Source: Thiomargarita sp. (GTDB lineage: Bacteria > Pseudomonadota > Gammaproteobacteria > Beggiatoales > Beggiatoaceae). From it: DNA of 36,406 nt. Location: contig DZAL01000023.1 in NCBI GenBank assembly GCA_022729575.1, positions 10,916 to 47,321 on the forward strand, in the 5' to 3' direction. Positions 5,616 through 34,969 of the stretch are shown piece after piece. The stretch's first letter is position 1, and the number at the start of each line of letters is the position of its first letter. A program made the translations under genes and the position numbers. Below the pieces are notes generated by a model that saw nothing but the letters and a program-made list of their open reading frames with translations, was not told where the DNA came from and did not search any database.

Positions 5616-5749
5616 CAATGCCATTAAGTTAAGCCGCGTTGGAGTCCAAACCTTCAGATTTGGACGAGATTAGTTAAGGTGAGACGGCGTTTCCAAATCT
5701 GAAGGTTTGGACTCCAGCGCCGTAACTTTAGCTTAACTTAATGGCATTG
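5616..5749. mobile_element. 134-bp palindromic element (family B) flanked by 11-bp direct repeats
   Basis: Outer arms 5616-5633 and 5732-5749 are perfect 18-bp inverted repeats (CAATGCCATTAAGTTAAG). Inside is the same TTGGAGTCC/GGACTCC palindrome seen at 537-620. CCCCGTACCCT occurs immediately on both sides (5605-5615 and 5750-5760), as a target-site duplication would. No reading frame of its own is present, so any mobility must depend on other proteins. Confidence 0.75.
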
Positions 5750-5892
5750 CCCCGTACCCTCCTTAGTAAAGAGGGGAGCATGCGCCAATTGAGTTGGCAT
5801 AGTCGACTCCCCTCCTTATAGTGATATGTCGATTCAGTTGTACTGCCATGAGGCGGTGAGAGAGTTATCTCAAAGGAGTGAGCCAAGTTTAA

Positions 5893-5923
5893 GGTTTCCT
5901 AAGCCTCGAAGGCTTAGGAAACC
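5893..5923. repeat. 31-bp hairpin
   Basis: GGTTTCCTAAGCCT (5893-5906) pairs perfectly with 5910-5923 around a 3-nt loop CGA. It stands 330 bases after bamC and has no T-tract, so I call it a palindromic repeat rather than a terminator. Confidence 0.7.
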
Positions 5924-6016
5924 TAGTACCTGTCAGGTTTAAAATTAGACCATCGAGATACTGGAAACTTCTCCGGCAACCGGCTCCATAGGTACAACAC
6001 TATATGAATATGACTA

Positions 6017-6162: not shown

Positions 6163-9100
6163 ATGTTTGCTGTATTCCAATATTTATCAACGTTATTTCG
6201 TCTGGTGTGGCTAGTATGGCTATGGTTGTGGATGCTGGTTTGCGTCACGGTCTTCATGGTGGTCTTGTTGTTCTCGCGACTGCCGGATTATCGTGTGAAT
6301 ATCGAACAATGGTTAACTGGCTTAATCGGTCAACCGGTGACCATTGGTGAAATAGTTACCTATTGGGAAGGTTGGCAACCGACTTTAGTGGTTCAACAAA
6401 TCCGGGTGCATTCGCCGCCGACCAAACCAAGCGTGCTTTGTTGCCCTCCTCAGACGAAGACACGAGGTGAAATCTCTCCGTCCTCTCCAGCGAAATCTAC
6501 GGGGTTGGAAATTACTCGATTTGAAATCAGTCTAAATTTATTGGCTTCGTTGCAACAACAACAGTTATTGACCGCCAGAGTGGAGTTGCGGGCGAAGGAA
6601 TTGACTTTGATTCAATCGGTGGCTGGAGATATTCGTTTAAGTGGATTATCTGCGGCCACGGCGAAATCAGAGCCGAGTAATCCGCTTGAGATATTGCCTT
6701 GGTTGCTACAACAATCAGCAGTGTCTTGGCAGGTGGCTAAATTAACTTGGGTCACGGCTAATCAACCGGCTTTAAGTTTTACCGAAATTGAGTTGAGTGT
6801 GCAGAAACAAGGTGATTCGAATTATCTGCAAGGACAAGTTGCTTTACCGCCACAGTCCTTCCATGGTCTGTCCGCGCAACAGTTTACTTTTTCTAGTACC
6901 TTAGTTTGGGATTATGGTCGATTAAGTCGTTTTGATGGACAATTTTATTTACGAGATTTGCATTATGTGGTTCCCGAAGGTCATTCTCCAGTGGCGTACT
7001 TAGAAGGACAATTGACTGGTCAGCGGCGACTTGGCAATAAATGGCAAGTGTCGGTTAATAAATTAGCATTGGTGCCGGCACCGCGCGTCTCAACCCACGT
7101 CTCAACCGCTTCCTTGACTTCTGCCAGGACCATAGATTTGGCCCCGCTGATGCTGGAAAGTAGTTCCTTCCTTGAGCGTGGTGAGTGGCAAGTATCCGGT
7201 CAACTCAAACAGTTTTCTTTGGCGAGGTTATCACAGTGGTTTACGCCCACCCAGTCGGATTGGCAATCCACGCTAAACACGGTGCAAGGTGAGTTACAAA
7301 ATATTGAATGGAGTTATCGTTCACCCGCACACTGGCAAGTCCGTTTACAACTGGAAGCCGTGACTGCGCATCCTCCCCAGGCCAATTGGCCACAATTTAC
7401 TTTAGGTAGCGGACAGTTACAAATAGCCTCTCAACAAGGTCATCTGGCCTTTGAGCAGTTAGCGCTGTCTCTCCAACCAGCAGGCTATCAACAACCATTG
7501 TCTCTGTTTTCGGTAACCGGACAGTTACAATGGCAACGTACTGCCAAATATTGGTTATTGACGATTCCAGAGGTTCAATTCTCTGATCAATTTGAGCCAT
7601 CAATGCAAGTACAAGTGGTGGGTAGTTTAAAATTTCCTCATCAGGCGGGTCGGCCCCCGGAAAGTCGGTTGACGGTGACGGCTAAAAATTTTCCCTTGAC
7701 ACCACAACTGCAACGTTATTTGCCCACTAACCAGTGGCCCGAGACTATCAAATATGTCACCGGTACGATACAAAATTTACGCTGGATGATGTCACCCACC
7801 CAGCCATTTGAATTGCAAGGAGAAATAAAAAATTTGGGGGTGCAGTATGAACAAGCTAATCAGGTCGATTTGACGGTCCGTGAGTTAACGGGGCAATTTC
7901 AAGTGACTCCGCAACAGGGATCGCTACAATTACAACAGGCCCAGGTGACGATTAATTTACCGCAAGCCTATAGTCATCCGTTATCTCTCTCGGCGCTTCA
8001 TGGTGAGGTGAGTTGGAAATACCAGCAACAGCAATGGCATCTCAAAACATCCAAATTACACGCGCTTACCACGCATCAGATACCGTTGCAAGTCGCCGGC
8101 AGTATCAGTATTCCAGAGTCACCGGGGGTGCCCTATTTGAATCTTCGGATCAATTTACAGCAAGGACAATTAGAAAATGTGGCGTTTTATTTGCCCGATG
8201 TGCAGTGGAAAACAGTGCTGGCGTGGTTCCATCAAGCTAAATTAATCGGTAAAATTACTTCGGCCCAAGCTTTGTTGAAAGGCCCGGTAAATGCGTTGTT
8301 TGATCCTCGATGGGGTCAGTTTGAATTTACCGGTCAAGTCCAGCAGGCTTATGTTCAATATGACCCCAAGTGGCCGGCGGTTACTGAGGCGGAAGTGCAA
8401 GTGGCAATCACCGGGCCGCGGTTGGTGATTACCGCGTCTAAGGGAAAATTATTAACTAACCAAATCCGTAAATTAGTAGTCAGCATCGATAATTTAAAGG
8501 CAGCTCAACCCGTACTTGACCTGGTTGGAAAAACGCAGGGGCCGGCTATCGACGGTTTACGTTTTCTGGACCAAAGTCCATTACAAAAAACGGTGGGCGT
8601 GGGTGAAGCCATGTTAGGGTTAGAGGGGCCGATGGAGTTGCAGTTGACCTTGGCGATTCCTCTATTTGCTGGTGGGAAGACTCAAGTCGATGGTAAAATT
8701 AGTTTTCAGCGTAATACGTTACATAAAAAATCTTTGGATTTAAAAATTACACAATTAAAAGGAGTTTTACGGTTTACTCAGGAGTCGGTCTCGGCTGATC
8801 GTTTGCAAGGTAAATTATTTAATCAACCGCTCAGTTGGTCTTTGCTCACGTTGCGAGATTCCGTGCCGAAACGTACTCGTTTACAGTTGACCGGTAAAGC
8901 TGATCCGGCTTTTTTGACACAGTTAGCACAAATACCAGCAGTCGGTCTGCAATTACCTCTTTCGCGCTATTTAACGGGCCAGATGAATTGGCAAATAACC
9001 ATCCACTTTCCTAATGATTCGACGGCATCGACAACCAGTGAGACTCAGATGGTCATAGCAAGTGATTTGGTGGGCTTGGGGATTGCGTTGCCATCTCCTT

Positions 9101-10728
9101 TGGCGAAACTACCGGAACAAGCGGTGCCGTTGTTGATCGAAGTGAAGACGAAACCAGATTTGACCAAACCAGATTTGACCAAACCAGATTTGACAACTTT
9201 CAAAAAGTTGTCAAATCTTTCCCCAAACCTTCAAGAAATACGTTTTCATTATGGTGATTTAGTGAATGGTGTGGTTAAACTGGATGCCCAAGGTTTATTC
9301 TGTGGTCAATGGGTGTGGGGGACGACTCCGGCCCAATTGCCCCAATGTCCTTTGGTCAGCATCGTCGGAGTGATTCCGCCTCTAGTGTTAACCGCCTGGC
9401 AAAAGGTGTTTGAAGAGGTGCAATCATCGCTTAAAAATGCTCAATCTTCTCGTGATCTTCAATCAACTACAAATAATCTTCGCTTCCCGATTGAAGTGGA
9501 TGTCCGTTTTGCGCAATTGGTAGGTTATGGTCAGCAATTGGACCGTTTGGCGGTACAATCTCGTTACACGAATAAGCAGTGGGAAGCGGCTGTCACCAAT
9601 GAGACTATCGAAGGTCAAATGCGTTATCGTTTCGACCAATCACCGCCAACCCTAGAGTTGAATTTCCAGCAACTTAGTATTAACTTCTTTGATTTCGATG
9701 AGTTAAAGGCTAATAGTACAGATAATACTACCGATTTGACAACTTCAAAAAAGTTGTCAAATCTCCAAGATAATACTACAACAGATTTGACAACTTCAAA
9801 AAAGTTGTCAAATCTTAAAGATAATACTACCGATTTGACAACTTTAAAAAAGTTGTCAAATCTTAAAGAGATTAGCAAGTCCAATTCCATGGCGACCAAT
9901 TCTACTGCGCCCTTTAATCCACGTACCTTGCCAATAATTTCATTTTACTGCAATACCTTAAAGGTAGGTCCCGTCAAGTTGGGGCCAGTGAATTTGTCGG
10001 CGCAACCGACTTCTGCGGGGCTAGACATTTTAGCGGAAGCCACGGCAAATCATTTAAATGTGTTGAGTAAAATCCAATGGCAATCTTTAATCTATCAACA
10101 TCAAACGGTAGTGCAAGGCAGTATAACCAGTGATAATACGGGTCAGTCATTACAGGAGTTGGGGCTGGCGAAACCACCCGTGCAAGACGGAATCAGTCAA
10201 ATTATTGCCAATGCCCAATGGCCTGGGCCCCCGTGGGCATTTAATTTGGCGACGTTAAAAGGACGTTTGAGCATATTATTGCTAGAAGGACAAATTTTAC
10301 CCGTGGAGCCGGGAATAGGTCGCTTATTTGGCTTATTTGATTGGTCAGCGCTACCAAAACGGTTAGCGTTAGATTTTCATGACGTGTTTGCGAAGGGCTT
10401 AGGGTTTAACAGTATCGTTGGGTTTTGGGTGATTAATAACGGTGTTGCCGACATTGATCAATTCTTGCTTCAAGGCCCTATTGCCCAGATTGAGATTCAA
10501 GGTCGCACACACCTGGTGGAGCACACTTATAATCAAGTGATTACGGTGACTCCTCATCTGTCCAATGCGCTACCGGTCGTGGGTACAATCGTGGGTGGTC
10601 CAGGCGTGGGGGCGACCACCCTGGTTATGCAGCAGATGTTGCAGGCGGAGATAGAAAAATCGACTAATTTTCAATATCAGGTGACTGGTAGTTGGGAGGT
10701 GCCGGTGATTGAAAAGGTGAGAAGGTGA
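6163..10728 (+). CDS. yhdP: YhdP family AsmA-like giant envelope protein (DUF3971)
   Basis: This 1521-residue protein matches YhdP, a gammaproteobacterial AsmA-like protein. In E. coli it spans the periplasm and helps move phospholipids to the outer membrane together with TamB and YdbH. An N-terminal membrane segment (about 8-40) is followed by a long beta-rich repeat region. Typical YhdP landmarks are FNQPLSWSLLTLRD, the ALPSPLAKLPE segment, and a C-terminal GRLFGLFDWSALPKRLALDF block with FAKGLGFNSIVGFW. E. coli YhdP is about 1266 residues, so this one is long. Part of the excess is repeat-encoded: DLTTFKKLSNL at residues 1009-1019, and three near-identical copies in about 1187-1238. The stop TGA shares its A with the first base of a palindrome arm. 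The start is an ATG with a weak ribosome binding site. Confidence 0.9.
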   Translation: MFAVFQYLSTLFRLVWLVWLWLWMLVCVTVFMVVLLFSRLPDYRVNIEQWLTGLIGQPVTIGEIVTYWEGWQPTLVVQQIRVHSPPTKPSVLCCPPQTKTRGEISPSSPAKSTGLEITRFEISLNLLASLQQQQLLTARVELRAKELTLIQSVAGDIRLSGLSAATAKSEPSNPLEILPWLLQQSAVSWQVAKLTWVTANQPALSFTEIELSVQKQGDSNYLQGQVALPPQSFHGLSAQQFTFSSTLVWDYGRLSRFDGQFYLRDLHYVVPEGHSPVAYLEGQLTGQRRLGNKWQVSVNKLALVPAPRVSTHVSTASLTSARTIDLAPLMLESSSFLERGEWQVSGQLKQFSLARLSQWFTPTQSDWQSTLNTVQGELQNIEWSYRSPAHWQVRLQLEAVTAHPPQANWPQFTLGSGQLQIASQQGHLAFEQLALSLQPAGYQQPLSLFSVTGQLQWQRTAKYWLLTIPEVQFSDQFEPSMQVQVVGSLKFPHQAGRPPESRLTVTAKNFPLTPQLQRYLPTNQWPETIKYVTGTIQNLRWMMSPTQPFELQGEIKNLGVQYEQANQVDLTVRELTGQFQVTPQQGSLQLQQAQVTINLPQAYSHPLSLSALHGEVSWKYQQQQWHLKTSKLHALTTHQIPLQVAGSISIPESPGVPYLNLRINLQQGQLENVAFYLPDVQWKTVLAWFHQAKLIGKITSAQALLKGPVNALFDPRWGQFEFTGQVQQAYVQYDPKWPAVTEAEVQVAITGPRLVITASKGKLLTNQIRKLVVSIDNLKAAQPVLDLVGKTQGPAIDGLRFLDQSPLQKTVGVGEAMLGLEGPMELQLTLAIPLFAGGKTQVDGKISFQRNTLHKKSLDLKITQLKGVLRFTQESVSADRLQGKLFNQPLSWSLLTLRDSVPKRTRLQLTGKADPAFLTQLAQIPAVGLQLPLSRYLTGQMNWQITIHFPNDSTASTTSETQMVIASDLVGLGIALPSPLAKLPEQAVPLLIEVKTKPDLTKPDLTKPDLTTFKKLSNLSPNLQEIRFHYGDLVNGVVKLDAQGLFCGQWVWGTTPAQLPQCPLVSIVGVIPPLVLTAWQKVFEEVQSSLKNAQSSRDLQSTTNNLRFPIEVDVRFAQLVGYGQQLDRLAVQSRYTNKQWEAAVTNETIEGQMRYRFDQSPPTLELNFQQLSINFFDFDELKANSTDNTTDLTTSKKLSNLQDNTTTDLTTSKKLSNLKDNTTDLTTLKKLSNLKEISKSNSMATNSTAPFNPRTLPIISFYCNTLKVGPVKLGPVNLSAQPTSAGLDILAEATANHLNVLSKIQWQSLIYQHQTVVQGSITSDNTGQSLQELGLAKPPVQDGISQIIANAQWPGPPWAFNLATLKGRLSILLLEGQILPVEPGIGRLFGLFDWSALPKRLALDFHDVFAKGLGFNSIVGFWVINNGVADIDQFLLQGPIAQIEIQGRTHLVEHTYNQVITVTPHLSNALPVVGTIVGGPGVGATTLVMQQMLQAEIEKSTNFQYQVTGSWEVPVIEKVRR
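9186..9218 (+). repeat. 33-bp palindrome in frame inside yhdP, site 1
   Basis: A perfect copy of the palindrome is read as DLTTFKKLSNL (residues 1009-1019). It is preceded by short tandem copies of AAACCAGATTTGACC that encode KPDLT units, which look like slipped duplicates of the repeat edge. Confidence 0.9.
9732..9863 (+). repeat. Three tandem 33-bp palindromes in frame inside yhdP, site 2
   Basis: Copies at 9732-9764, 9783-9815 and 9831-9863 are spaced 51 and 48 bases apart, both multiples of three. Each is joined by a GATAATACTAC linker. They encode DLTTSKKLSNL, DLTTSKKLSNL and [11 protein letters not shown] separated by DNTT-type linkers, with no frame disruption. This is tandem expansion of a repeat plus its flank within a coding sequence. 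Confidence 0.9.
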
Positions 10729-11000
10729 GATTTGACAACTTAGATTTGACAACTTTTCGAAAGTTGTCAAATCTTGAGCCCCCAGTCAGATTTGACAACT
10801 TGTCGAAAGTTGTCAAATCTTGAGCCCAGTCAGATTTGACAACTTTTTGAAAGTTGTCAAATCTTAAGCCCCCAGTCAGATTTGACAACTTTTCGAAAGT
10901 GCTCAAATCTTGAGCCCAGTCAGATTTGACAACTTTTTGAAAGTGGTCAAATCTTGAGCCCCCAGTCAGATTTGACAACTTTTCGAAAGTGGTCAAATCT
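10728..11000. repeat. Array of six 33-bp palindromes after yhdP
   Basis: A half arm (10728-10741) is followed by full copies at 10742-10774, 10788-10820, 10832-10864, 10878-10910, 10922-10954 and 10968-11000. Linkers alternate between TGAGCCCAGTC and TGAGCCCCCAGTC-like forms. Centres vary (TTCGA, GTCGA, TTTGA). In the last three copies the right arm carries uncompensated changes. The remaining 219 bases to the tRNA are AT-rich and contain its promoter. Confidence 0.9.
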
Positions 11001-17915: not shown

Positions 17916-18171
17916 GAACTTTTATCTCGTTCCCACGCGCCAGAGTGGGAATGCCGTGAAGTTAAGTGGCGTTGGAGTCCAAAGCTTCAGCTTTGGAAAC
18001 GCCGTCTCACCTTAACCAGTCTCGTCCAAAGCTGAAGCTTTGGACTCCAACGCCGTAACTATTATCTCGTTCCCACGCGCCAGCGTTGCTGGAACGAGAC
18101 GCTGGCGCGTGGGAACGAGATAAATTTTCAAATTTGGACTCCCACGCGGGAGCCAATATGGAGGACAACTG
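17916..18171. repeat. Repeats inside the exporter operon
   Basis: The gap holds a partial CTCGTTCCCACG repeat (17926-17955), a copy of palindromic element B in the opposite orientation (about 17951-18060), and a very strong hairpin (18062-18123). That hairpin has perfect 24-bp arms of the TTATCTCGTTCCCACG type around a 14-nt loop. In the transcript it could stop exonucleases or attenuate permease expression; that is inference. Confidence 0.85.
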
Positions 18172-23429: not shown

Positions 23430-24041
23430 TTAAGAAACAGATTCTCGATGATGATCTATGTTGATGGCTTCCAGACATACTTCATCAAGTCGAGTGTCAG
23501 TCAAATTAGTATCGGTTAAATCGGCTTTAAATAAATTAGCTTGTCTTAAATAACATTTACTTAAGTTGGCTTCGGTTAGATTAGCACGAAATAAATTGGT
23601 GCCGGTAAAATTGGCTCTGGATAAATTTGATTTAAATAAATTACTTCTAAATAAATTGGCTTCTGATAAATTGGCTGCGATTAGTGAAGAATTAATAATA
23701 TACGCTTTGGTCAAATTGGCTTCTGATAAATTAGCTTGATTCAGGTCGGCGTGATAAATGTAAGATTCACTTAAATTAGCTTCGCTTAGGTCAGCCTTAA
23801 TAAATTTAGAACGAGTAAGATTAGCTTCACTGAGATTGGCACCGGATAAGTTAGCGCCGGACAGATCAGTATCCGTCAAATCTGCTTTACTTAAGTTGGC
23901 TCGAAATAAATCAGCTTCTCTAAGATCCATTCCGCCCAAGTTTTCTCCAGATAAATCCGCCCAGAGGTTATTTTTTGCTCGCCATTGATTCCATGCTGTT
24001 ACGCCCTGCCGCAAAATAGCCAGATGTTCCCCATTTGCCAT
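23430..24041 (-). CDS. Pentapeptide-repeat protein
   Basis: The 203-residue protein consists mostly of pentapeptide repeats of the A(D/N)LxX type, such as ADLSG, ANLSE, ANLFR and ADLTD. They run from about residue 28 to 190 and fold as a right-handed quadrilateral beta-helix. A short N-terminal segment with NQWRAKNNLWADLSGENL precedes the repeats; such a start is common in pentapeptide proteins of large sulfur bacteria and cyanobacteria. The biochemical role is not predictable; the DNA-mimic gyrase-protection role of Qnr/MfpA proteins should not be assumed. There is no fused kinase or TIR domain. The flanking gene on the 5' side is a membrane protein on the same strand, 94 bases away. Confidence 0.9.
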   Translation of the reverse strand: MANGEHLAILRQGVTAWNQWRAKNNLWADLSGENLGGMDLREADLFRANLSKADLTDTDLSGANLSGANLSEANLTRSKFIKADLSEANLSESYIYHADLNQANLSEANLTKAYIINSSLIAANLSEANLFRSNLFKSNLSRANFTGTNLFRANLTEANLSKCYLRQANLFKADLTDTNLTDTRLDEVCLEAINIDHHRESVS

Positions 24042-25769: not shown

Positions 25770-25890
25770 AAATTTGACAACTTGTCGAAAGTTGTCAAAT
25801 CGAAACGGGCTACAGATTTGACAACTTGTCGAAAGTTGTCAAATCTAAATTGGCTACAGATTTGACAACTTGTCGAAAGTTGTCAAATCT
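25770..25890. repeat. Three 33-bp palindromes between the hemerythrin and DUF2249 genes
   Basis: Copies lie at 25770-25802, 25814-25846 and 25858-25890, all with the GTCGA-type centre and linkers GGGCTAC or TTGGCTAC. The third is translated as the end of the hemerythrin protein. Confidence 0.9.
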
Positions 25891-26321
25891 AAACTTTCTA
25901 AAATGGTCGTCACTTCGTCAGCTAACATCTGGTCACTCATAGGATAAAGAATCTGCTCTTCTTTAGCGTTATGTTGTCGCATTAGCATTAACAGCGTTTC
26001 GGACAGACCCAAATATTGATCTCGGTCTTGTTGGACCACACTCGCTTGCATTTCTTGGAACAATTGCCGCATTTGTTGATGCTCAAATCGCATCACCTGA
26101 GTGGGGCCAGCCGTCGCACTGCCGGTGCATTGCTCAAACCGCGGAAATAATATTTGCTCTTCATTAGTAAAATGGCATTCCATTGAATTAATGAAAGTCG
26201 TCAACCCTGTGGTCGCTGTTTCCCAATGATTTTTGTCAACCTCGAATTCGGCTTGAGCAAATAGAGAATCGCAGTGCGAATGTTGTTGGCTAAAAGTAGC
26301 CGTAATCGTTTTCTGATTCAT
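25854..26321 (-). CDS. Hemerythrin-domain protein
   Basis: The 155-residue protein is a four-helix hemerythrin with a di-iron ligand set visible as His14/His16, His50 and Glu54 (HFTNE), His81, and His117 with Glu121 (HNAKE). Hemerythrins bind O2 or NO. The ATG at 26321 is preferred over a TTG at 26342. The domain ends near ADEVTTILESL; the last 11 residues DLTTFDKLSNL are exactly the translation of one 33-bp palindrome, followed by TAG. It heads an operon with the DUF2249 and membrane-protein genes and is divergent from a DNR-like regulator; a candidate FNR/DNR box lies at the right distance from its promoter. Confidence 0.9.
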   Translation of the reverse strand: MNQKTITATFSQQHSHCDSLFAQAEFEVDKNHWETATTGLTTFINSMECHFTNEEQILFPRFEQCTGSATAGPTQVMRFEHQQMRQLFQEMQASVVQQDRDQYLGLSETLLMLMRQHNAKEEQILYPMSDQMLADEVTTILESLDLTTFDKLSNL

Positions 26322-26428
26322 AAGAAGTCTCTTAGTTTTCAATTAATCGGTGGGGTCAAAACCATAAATTTGGTCAGCCTAACCCCTTTTCCGCGCTGGC
26401 GGGAAAAAATGGCTATCGATCATGGCTG

Positions 26429-27205: not shown

Positions 27206-27559
27206 TGGATGGGGAAAATTTGACAACTTCAAAACAGTTGTCAAATTTATTCACTCATCTTACGCACGGTTAACTCAACCACCCCTTACCCTCCTTAGCA
27301 AGGAGGGGAGTATGCGCTAACCACCCCCTGCCCCTCCTTAGCAAGGAGGGGAGTATGCGCTAACCACCCCCTGCCCCTCCTTAGCAAGGAGGGGAGTATG
27401 CGCTAACCACCCCCTGCCCCTCCTTTTCTCGTTCCCACGCTGGCGCGTGGGAACGAGAAAAAACCTACTGGTGTGCATAGAGTAGCCTTAGCAAGGAGGG
27501 GTAGGGGGTGGTTACTTGACACCGCTTTCTAACCATTTTAACTAGGAGAAACCTGATTT
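27206..27559. repeat. Palindrome and C-rich tandem array after the regulator gene
   Basis: A 33-bp palindrome of the AAATTTGAC variant with a matching right arm (27216-27248) is followed by a C-rich element starting with CTTACGCACGGTTAACTCAA. The array has three 43-base tandem units from about 27265, each with a CCTCCTTAGCAAGGAGG hairpin and GAGTATGCGCTAACC linker. The last hairpin is interrupted by a 60-bp insert at 27426-27485. Nothing else is visible before the ribosome binding site of the next gene. Confidence 0.85.
27426..27485. mobile_element. 60-bp element inserted in a C-rich hairpin
   Basis: The insert starts with a CTCGTTCCCACGC hairpin (27428-27457) and ends with CCTACTGGTGTGCATAGAGTAG. 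It splits a CCTCCTT...AAGGAGG hairpin. The same insert, at the same position of another C-rich element, begins at 36369 and runs off the window. Confidence 0.6.
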
Positions 27560-34713: not shown

Positions 34714-34969
34714 TAATTTCTCCTGTTAATTGATTGTGGTTGAAAAAATTGGTAGTAATGCCATAGGTGGTGGTCGAGCTCTCAAACCTGACAGGTCTTC
34801 GAGACCTGTCAGGTTTAAACCACTACCTGGTGCTGAAAAAAAAATTCCCTCACCCCCGGCCCCTCACCCCCGGCCCCTCTCCCAGAGGGAGAGGGGAGAA
34901 AATCGGGGTTGCCGCCGGTCTCCCCTCTCCCCTTGGGAGAGGGGCCGGGGGTGAGGGTGGCCTTAGCCA
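34714..34969. other. gltA-thiolase intergenic region with two hairpins
   Basis: A perfect 15-bp stem with loop TCG (34784-34816, core AAACCTGACAGGTCT) is followed by a long C/G-rich inverted repeat (about 34847-34957) of the widespread CCCTCACCCCCGGCCCCTC type. On the minus strand both are downstream of gltA and could end its transcript. Confidence 0.7.
34784..34816. repeat. 33-bp hairpin of the CCTGTCAGG family
   Basis: The arms 34784-34798 and 34802-34816 are perfect complements around TCG. A half copy of the same family occurs at 5929-5943. It could serve as a terminator for gltA but has no U-tract directly after it on the minus strand. Confidence 0.6.

Follow-up and report, generated by a model that had tools for sequence, protein, structure and literature searches.

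Repetitive extragenic palindromes (REPs) have been described (PMC6006769) as species-specific elements that form REPtrons together with REP-associated tyrosine transposases (RAYTs), as in E. coli: a short, high-copy palindrome lies mainly between genes, is often clustered, and flanks the gene of its cognate Y1 HUH transposase, each palindrome family being served by a single enzyme clade. Conserved protein genes can also take up palindromes in frame and translate them, sometimes several together, as is known from Rickettsia palindromic elements (RPEs) and from intragenic GTAG/CGTC REPs (PMC2229807, PMC3733652). The window analysed here, a stretch of 36,406 nucleotides from a Thiomargarita sp. 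genome, contains 36 copies of GATTTGACAACTTN5AAGTTGTCAAATC (at most three mismatches; 0.00 expected from shuffles), several of them inside a YhdP-family gene, which encodes a conserved envelope protein. The full element is AGATTTGACAACTTT-NNN-AAAGTTGTCAAATCT, in which two arms of 15 bp enclose a centre of 3 nt, giving 33 bp or 11 codons in all. A version of the pattern with a 4-nt centre had the wrong spacing and gave almost no matches. The element shares with REPtrons the copy number, the placement, the clustering, the adjoining HUH gene and the pairing of clade with palindrome; unlike REPs in PMC6006769, it is fully dyad-symmetric, lacks a GT[AG]G foot, and is common to several phyla with its exact arms. 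Very probably it belongs to a GTAG-less REP/RAYT system, itself probably acquired horizontally; protein loops would tolerate its copies if the reading frame is kept, and these then undergo tandem duplication.

The open reading frame (ORF) hosting the insertions (6163-10728, forward strand, 1,521 aa) was assigned to the YhdP family by PF13116 (E = 5.2e-185) and by alignment with relatives. Pattern matches within it are located at 9187-9217, 9733-9763, 9784-9814 and 9832-9862. A pattern scan with translation bore out what an earlier note on this DNA had claimed, namely one plus three palindromes sharing the frame DLTT(F/S/L)KKLSNL. The palindrome of site 1 (9186-9218, 33 bp, perfect 15-bp arms) encodes DLTTFKKLSNL. 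Running into it on the forward strand are three tandem 15-bp units of AAACCAGATTTGAC(C/A), partial repeats of the left arm (9151-9195), which encode KPDLTKPDLTKPDLT; the protein there reads KPDLTKPDLTKPDLTT. Site 2 is a forward-strand tandem array (9721-9867), delimited by sequence and by the alignment of relatives, of three units made of GATAATACTAC(C/AACA) and a palindrome. The first two palindromes (9732-9764 and 9783-9815) encode DLTTSKKLSNL, and the third (9831-9863) is in frame with the other three YhdP copies. The palindrome-to-palindrome steps are 51 and then 48 bases, so that the frame-keeping growth proposed in the note stands, with its order of 48 then 51 reversed. A flank of 12-15 bp (GATAATACTAC...) is repeated along with each palindrome, so flank and palindrome were duplicated together in tandem to build the array.

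Alignment with ten YhdP relatives, the check the note had suggested, favoured insertion. Site 1 is missing from nine of the ten proteins, and the remaining one has an unrelated insert there with no palindrome, which, judged from the alignment, marks the site 1 loop as length-variable and tolerant. At site 2 all ten have a short stretch or nothing, and the YhdP of the same-genus sister genome (42% identity over residues 1-1088) has neither palindrome. The segments are therefore not a conserved domain common to these relatives, and the flanks still match the YhdP family, as had been claimed, both in the PF13116 match and in relatives that align on either side of the inserts. Because the segments are missing in relatives and the flanking YhdP aligns on both sides, they are best read as insertions in variable loops. 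An AlphaFold model of YhdP 931-1521, predicted from a single sequence, had a mean confidence (pLDDT) of 31, too low in quality for placing loops. In E. coli, yhdP on its own is dispensable. In the proposed course of events, yhdP was hit by two insertion events, the second of which would then have expanded to three copies by frame-preserving tandem duplication, probably with a near-neutral effect on YhdP if the segments are translated.

Absence in relatives was checked for two host proteins, YhdP and a penicillin-binding protein (PBP). The PBP carries four in-frame copies within its transpeptidase domain, ahead of the KTGT motif; the array is missing from seven relatives, and KTGT is retained after it. 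Both proteins thus combine what characterizes RPE-type insertions, an in-frame palindrome in a conserved gene and its absence in relatives. Further in-frame copies were found in a sensor kinase-cyclase (between response-regulator domains), a CheA-like kinase, a tetratricopeptide-repeat protein, a PMT-like enzyme, a chemotaxis receptor and the C-terminal tail of RuvB. RPEs are 105-146 bp long and no cognate enzyme is named for them in the available text of PMC2229807, whereas the present element is 33 bp long, has a candidate enzyme and has grown in tandem by steps that preserve the frame. PARCEL repeats (PMC2996958) are likewise palindromic coding repeats found across phyla, yet they form 25-residue domains in tandem arrays within their own ORFs, in contrast to the 11-residue insertions in conserved genes seen here.

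To place the copies relative to genes, a census was taken over 1.06 Mb of the host genome using ORFs from a simple codon-score caller, which makes the counts approximate. Of its 390 copies, 326 lie between genes, 27 run over a gene end and 37 fall within called ORFs. Among the last, 29 are read as DLTTxxKLSNL and eight as RFDNFxKVVKS; the third frame contains a stop and is used by no copy. Counted as independent sites (ORFs of at least 100 aa, away from uncertain starts), these become about 11 versus 4, or 15 versus 4 when cross-phylum cases are added, which is only suggestive of a preference for the first frame. Where neighbouring copies share an ORF, the step from one to the next is a multiple of three every time (16 of 16); between genes this holds for 70 of 199 steps (35%). 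An insertion of exactly 11 codons would add about 11 residues and leave the frame unshifted; a copy landing in a protein loop would persist only if read in one of the two frames without a stop. Most surviving copies are intergenic.

The host genome (6.57 Mb, 451 contigs) contains 1,562 copies with exact arms and the sister genome 33, and none was found in 41 other genomes of the family or in about 70 of the class. In a scan of named genomes, exact-arm copies were also found in Bacteroidota, Desulfobacterota, Nitrospira and Thiotrichaceae. The flanks of 98 cross-phylum copies are unrelated past the 33 bp. Clustering of all ORFs beside the cross-phylum copies identified an HUH protein of 209-211 aa with NHFH and YIHxNP motifs, flanked on both sides by copies in Taibaiella lutea, Mucilaginibacter phyllosphaerae and a Flavobacterium metagenome-assembled genome (MAG), where the gene is split. 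The palindrome lies 14-94 bp from these genes, in genomes that hold only 5-14 copies. The host has a RAYT-like gene, C294 (G000:C294:18875-19498), with 61% identity over 206 aa to that protein; exact-arm copies lie upstream (four), downstream (six) and in frame inside it (one). This RAYT-like HUH protein, surrounded by copies of the palindrome, gives the selfish palindrome of the earlier note a candidate mobiliser. The Flavobacterium gene (L121 6836-7706) carries five in-frame palindromes and is now two ORFs, apparently split inside its own array.

In an alignment of ten RAYT sequences, NHFH and Y..NP are invariant, and LFQ occupies the W-motif position. The family profile had TnpArep 4er8 (E = 2e-5) as its only significant match in the PDB, and REP_Tyr_transpos (REP-associated tyrosine transposase) of NCBIfam was matched with E = 1.5e-14; an AlphaFold model of the RAYT from two sequences (pLDDT 40) was too low in quality for a fold search. 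Enzyme and palindrome go together across the tree. Nine RAYTs with the common palindrome form one clade (support 100/98), in which the host RAYT falls among Bacteroidota sequences, and RAYTs of its own family are placed elsewhere. This palindrome flanks the RAYT loci whose identity is about 49% or higher; at loci of about 33-47% identity, other palindromes of the 33-bp design mostly take its place, for example AGACCTGACAGGTTT-NNN-AAACCTGTCAGGTCT. The host itself has further pairs, C131 with AGGGATAACACCCCT and C144 with AGTTTCCTAAACCT. The C144 relative scores 25.9 bits against Pfam Y1_Tnp PF01797 (cut-off 23), and no 33-bp palindrome was found at the host genome's other Y1_Tnp matches. The C131 RAYT-like gene (L269 5473-6243) has three AGGGATAACACCCCT copies in frame in the linker between its HuH and Y motifs, and this palindrome occurs about 70 times in the 1.06 Mb.

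Among the subclasses described in PMC6006769, two are close to this system. In TnpA_Y1 subclass 2.4, REPs are inserted inside tnpA_REP, in frame between the HuH and Y motifs, as are palindromes here in L150 (aa 71-81), L181, L184 and C131; that subclass also occurs in Bacteroidetes and scattered phyla, and its 'double foot' REPs are dyad-symmetric too. It differs by its GT[AG]G/C[TC]AC feet, of which flank base counts and sequences show no GT[AG]G tetranucleotide here, by the FQ found here at the W motif, and by YIxNNP, to which the YIHxNP found here does not always conform. Subclass 2.6 (Bertels group 5) is likewise from Bacteroidetes and without a GT[AG]G foot, with an SS motif and YIHxNP; it has NH[LIV]H and WQ where the present enzyme has NHFH and FQ, and its stems, compared by description, are weaker than the long, perfect ones here. 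The 'atypical structures' of subclass 2.6 may include part of this system (PMC6006769). In general, REPtron enzymes have W[QE] where FQ is found here, and the present enzyme scores under the family cut-offs. Neither palindrome nor peptide was found in open-licence literature, supplementary tables lying outside the search. In-frame REPs and RPEs are thus already known, and what is new is the cross-phylum spread, the dyad-symmetric 33-bp design and the matching of clade to palindrome.

The palindrome would accordingly act as a REP-like non-autonomous element, whose cognate transposase would be the RAYT-type Y1 (HUH) enzyme encoded at another locus of the genome, C294. Like TnpA_REP, this enzyme presumably cuts and joins a single-stranded hairpin. 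Element and enzyme probably arrived by horizontal transfer from Bacteroidota, followed by expansion to about 1,560 copies. Several observations weigh against this reading. The RAYT reaches 54 bits, under the 80-bit curated cut-off of NF047646, and the C294 protein 13.3 bits, under the Pfam Y1_Tnp PF01797 gathering cut-off of 23. A close RAYT is absent from the sister genome, and no RAYT match at E<=1e-10 was obtained in 24 of 41 palindrome-bearing genomes, among them two Desulfamplus MAGs (G119 L051 and G138 L079) that hold about 70 exact-arm copies each with no detectable cognate RAYT; these carriers may be explained by a different enzyme, by contigs that are missing or by loss of the RAYT once the element had spread. 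No exact pair of filled and empty sites was found at the DNA level. Across 416 copies (up to 8 mismatches), both arms changed symmetrically 63 times, where arms varying independently would give 2.2; this fits an element handled as a hairpin, in a count that includes array copies of common history and overstates the independent events. The palindrome was not found in viral contigs, the RAYT was not found in phages, and the closest RAYT relative on plasmids has 36.5% identity; therefore no transfer vehicle was found.

Of the competing explanations, the one that survives best, and is still unlikely, is that the in-gene copies are recent and their host genes are pseudogenes in progress, so that the insertions are not neutral. 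The arms are indeed still nearly perfect, and in 880 kb not chosen for hits only 12 of 279 copies (4.3%) lie in ORFs and 248 are intergenic, although 75% of this DNA is called coding. Decay is hard to reconcile with a YhdP frame open across 1,521 codons with a strong Pfam match on both sides, with the KTGT motif kept in the PBP, and with in-frame steps in every within-ORF case. It is very unlikely that the palindromes are host regulatory hairpins, acting as terminators or as DNA uptake sequences, that drift and recombination multiplied with no transposase. Such hairpins would account for the mainly intergenic copies and the maintained symmetry of the arms, and hairpins at gene ends can terminate transcription. 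Terminators, however, are disfavoured by the palindrome content of divergent intergenic regions (17 of 71), which is as rich as that of convergent ones (19 of 71), and hairpins of this kind leave unexplained both the cross-phylum palindrome beside its cognate HUH protein and the clade-specific switch of palindrome.

It is highly improbable that the YhdP segments are an old functional loop or interaction motif under selection, with a secondary likeness to the intergenic repeats. Such a motif would suit the constant frame within YhdP and its perfect or near-perfect codons; it is largely refuted by the alignments, in which the ten relatives, the same-genus sister genome included, lack the segments, and the same DNA occurs at more than a thousand further sites, most of them between genes, and also inside unrelated proteins. 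Equally little credence attaches to the view that an ordinary DDE-type insertion sequence or miniature inverted-repeat transposable element (MITE), with the palindromes as its terminal repeats, left them as remnants or contains them internally. The inverted repeats are short and numerous, as in MITEs, and MITEs disrupt genes in the giant sulfur bacterium Thiomargarita (PMC4853749); against this view, the flanks of the 98 cross-phylum copies are unrelated past the 33 bp and the recurring small gene family adjoining the copies encodes an HUH protein.

Besides the in-gene copies, the window contains an intergenic array of six copies immediately 3' of yhdP (10742-11000), with steps of 44-46 that are not multiples of three, and a copy at 25858-25890 that forms the C-terminus (DLTTFDKLSNL) of a reverse-strand ORF (25857-26342). 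Two more GTAG-less 33-bp palindromes, of other families, lie at 5892-5924 (AGGTTTCCTAAGCCT..) and 34784-34816 (AAACCTGACAGGTCT..), the former similar to the one beside the C144 RAYT. Other repeats include tandem 36- and 43-bp repeats based on CCCCTCCTTNNTAAGGAGGGG (1386-1565 and 27262-27425) and an 85-bp family (TTGGAGTCCAAACCTTCAG...) at 537-621, 5639-5723 and 17972-18056, in both orientations and 73-94% alike. A reverse-strand ORF (23433-24041) has repeats in multiples of 15 bp and probably encodes a pentapeptide-repeat protein.

The proposed REP/RAYT system may extend beyond this palindrome. There is a somewhat better than even chance that it represents a previously undescribed superfamily of GTAG-less 33-bp palindromes with dyad symmetry, in which every member has a RAYT-like enzyme of its own and has spread horizontally across phyla, and whose stop-free insertions of 11 codons put new [DN]LxxFxxLxxL-type segments into conserved proteins and would be a standing source of loops. 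The system joins three things that are usually separate: a palindrome inserted in proteins, a candidate mobilising enzyme, and the passage of both from phylum to phylum. Its approximately 1,560 copies form a natural insertion set for measuring tolerated protein sites, frame selection and tandem growth, and how REPs are recognized without a GTAG guide becomes a directly testable question.
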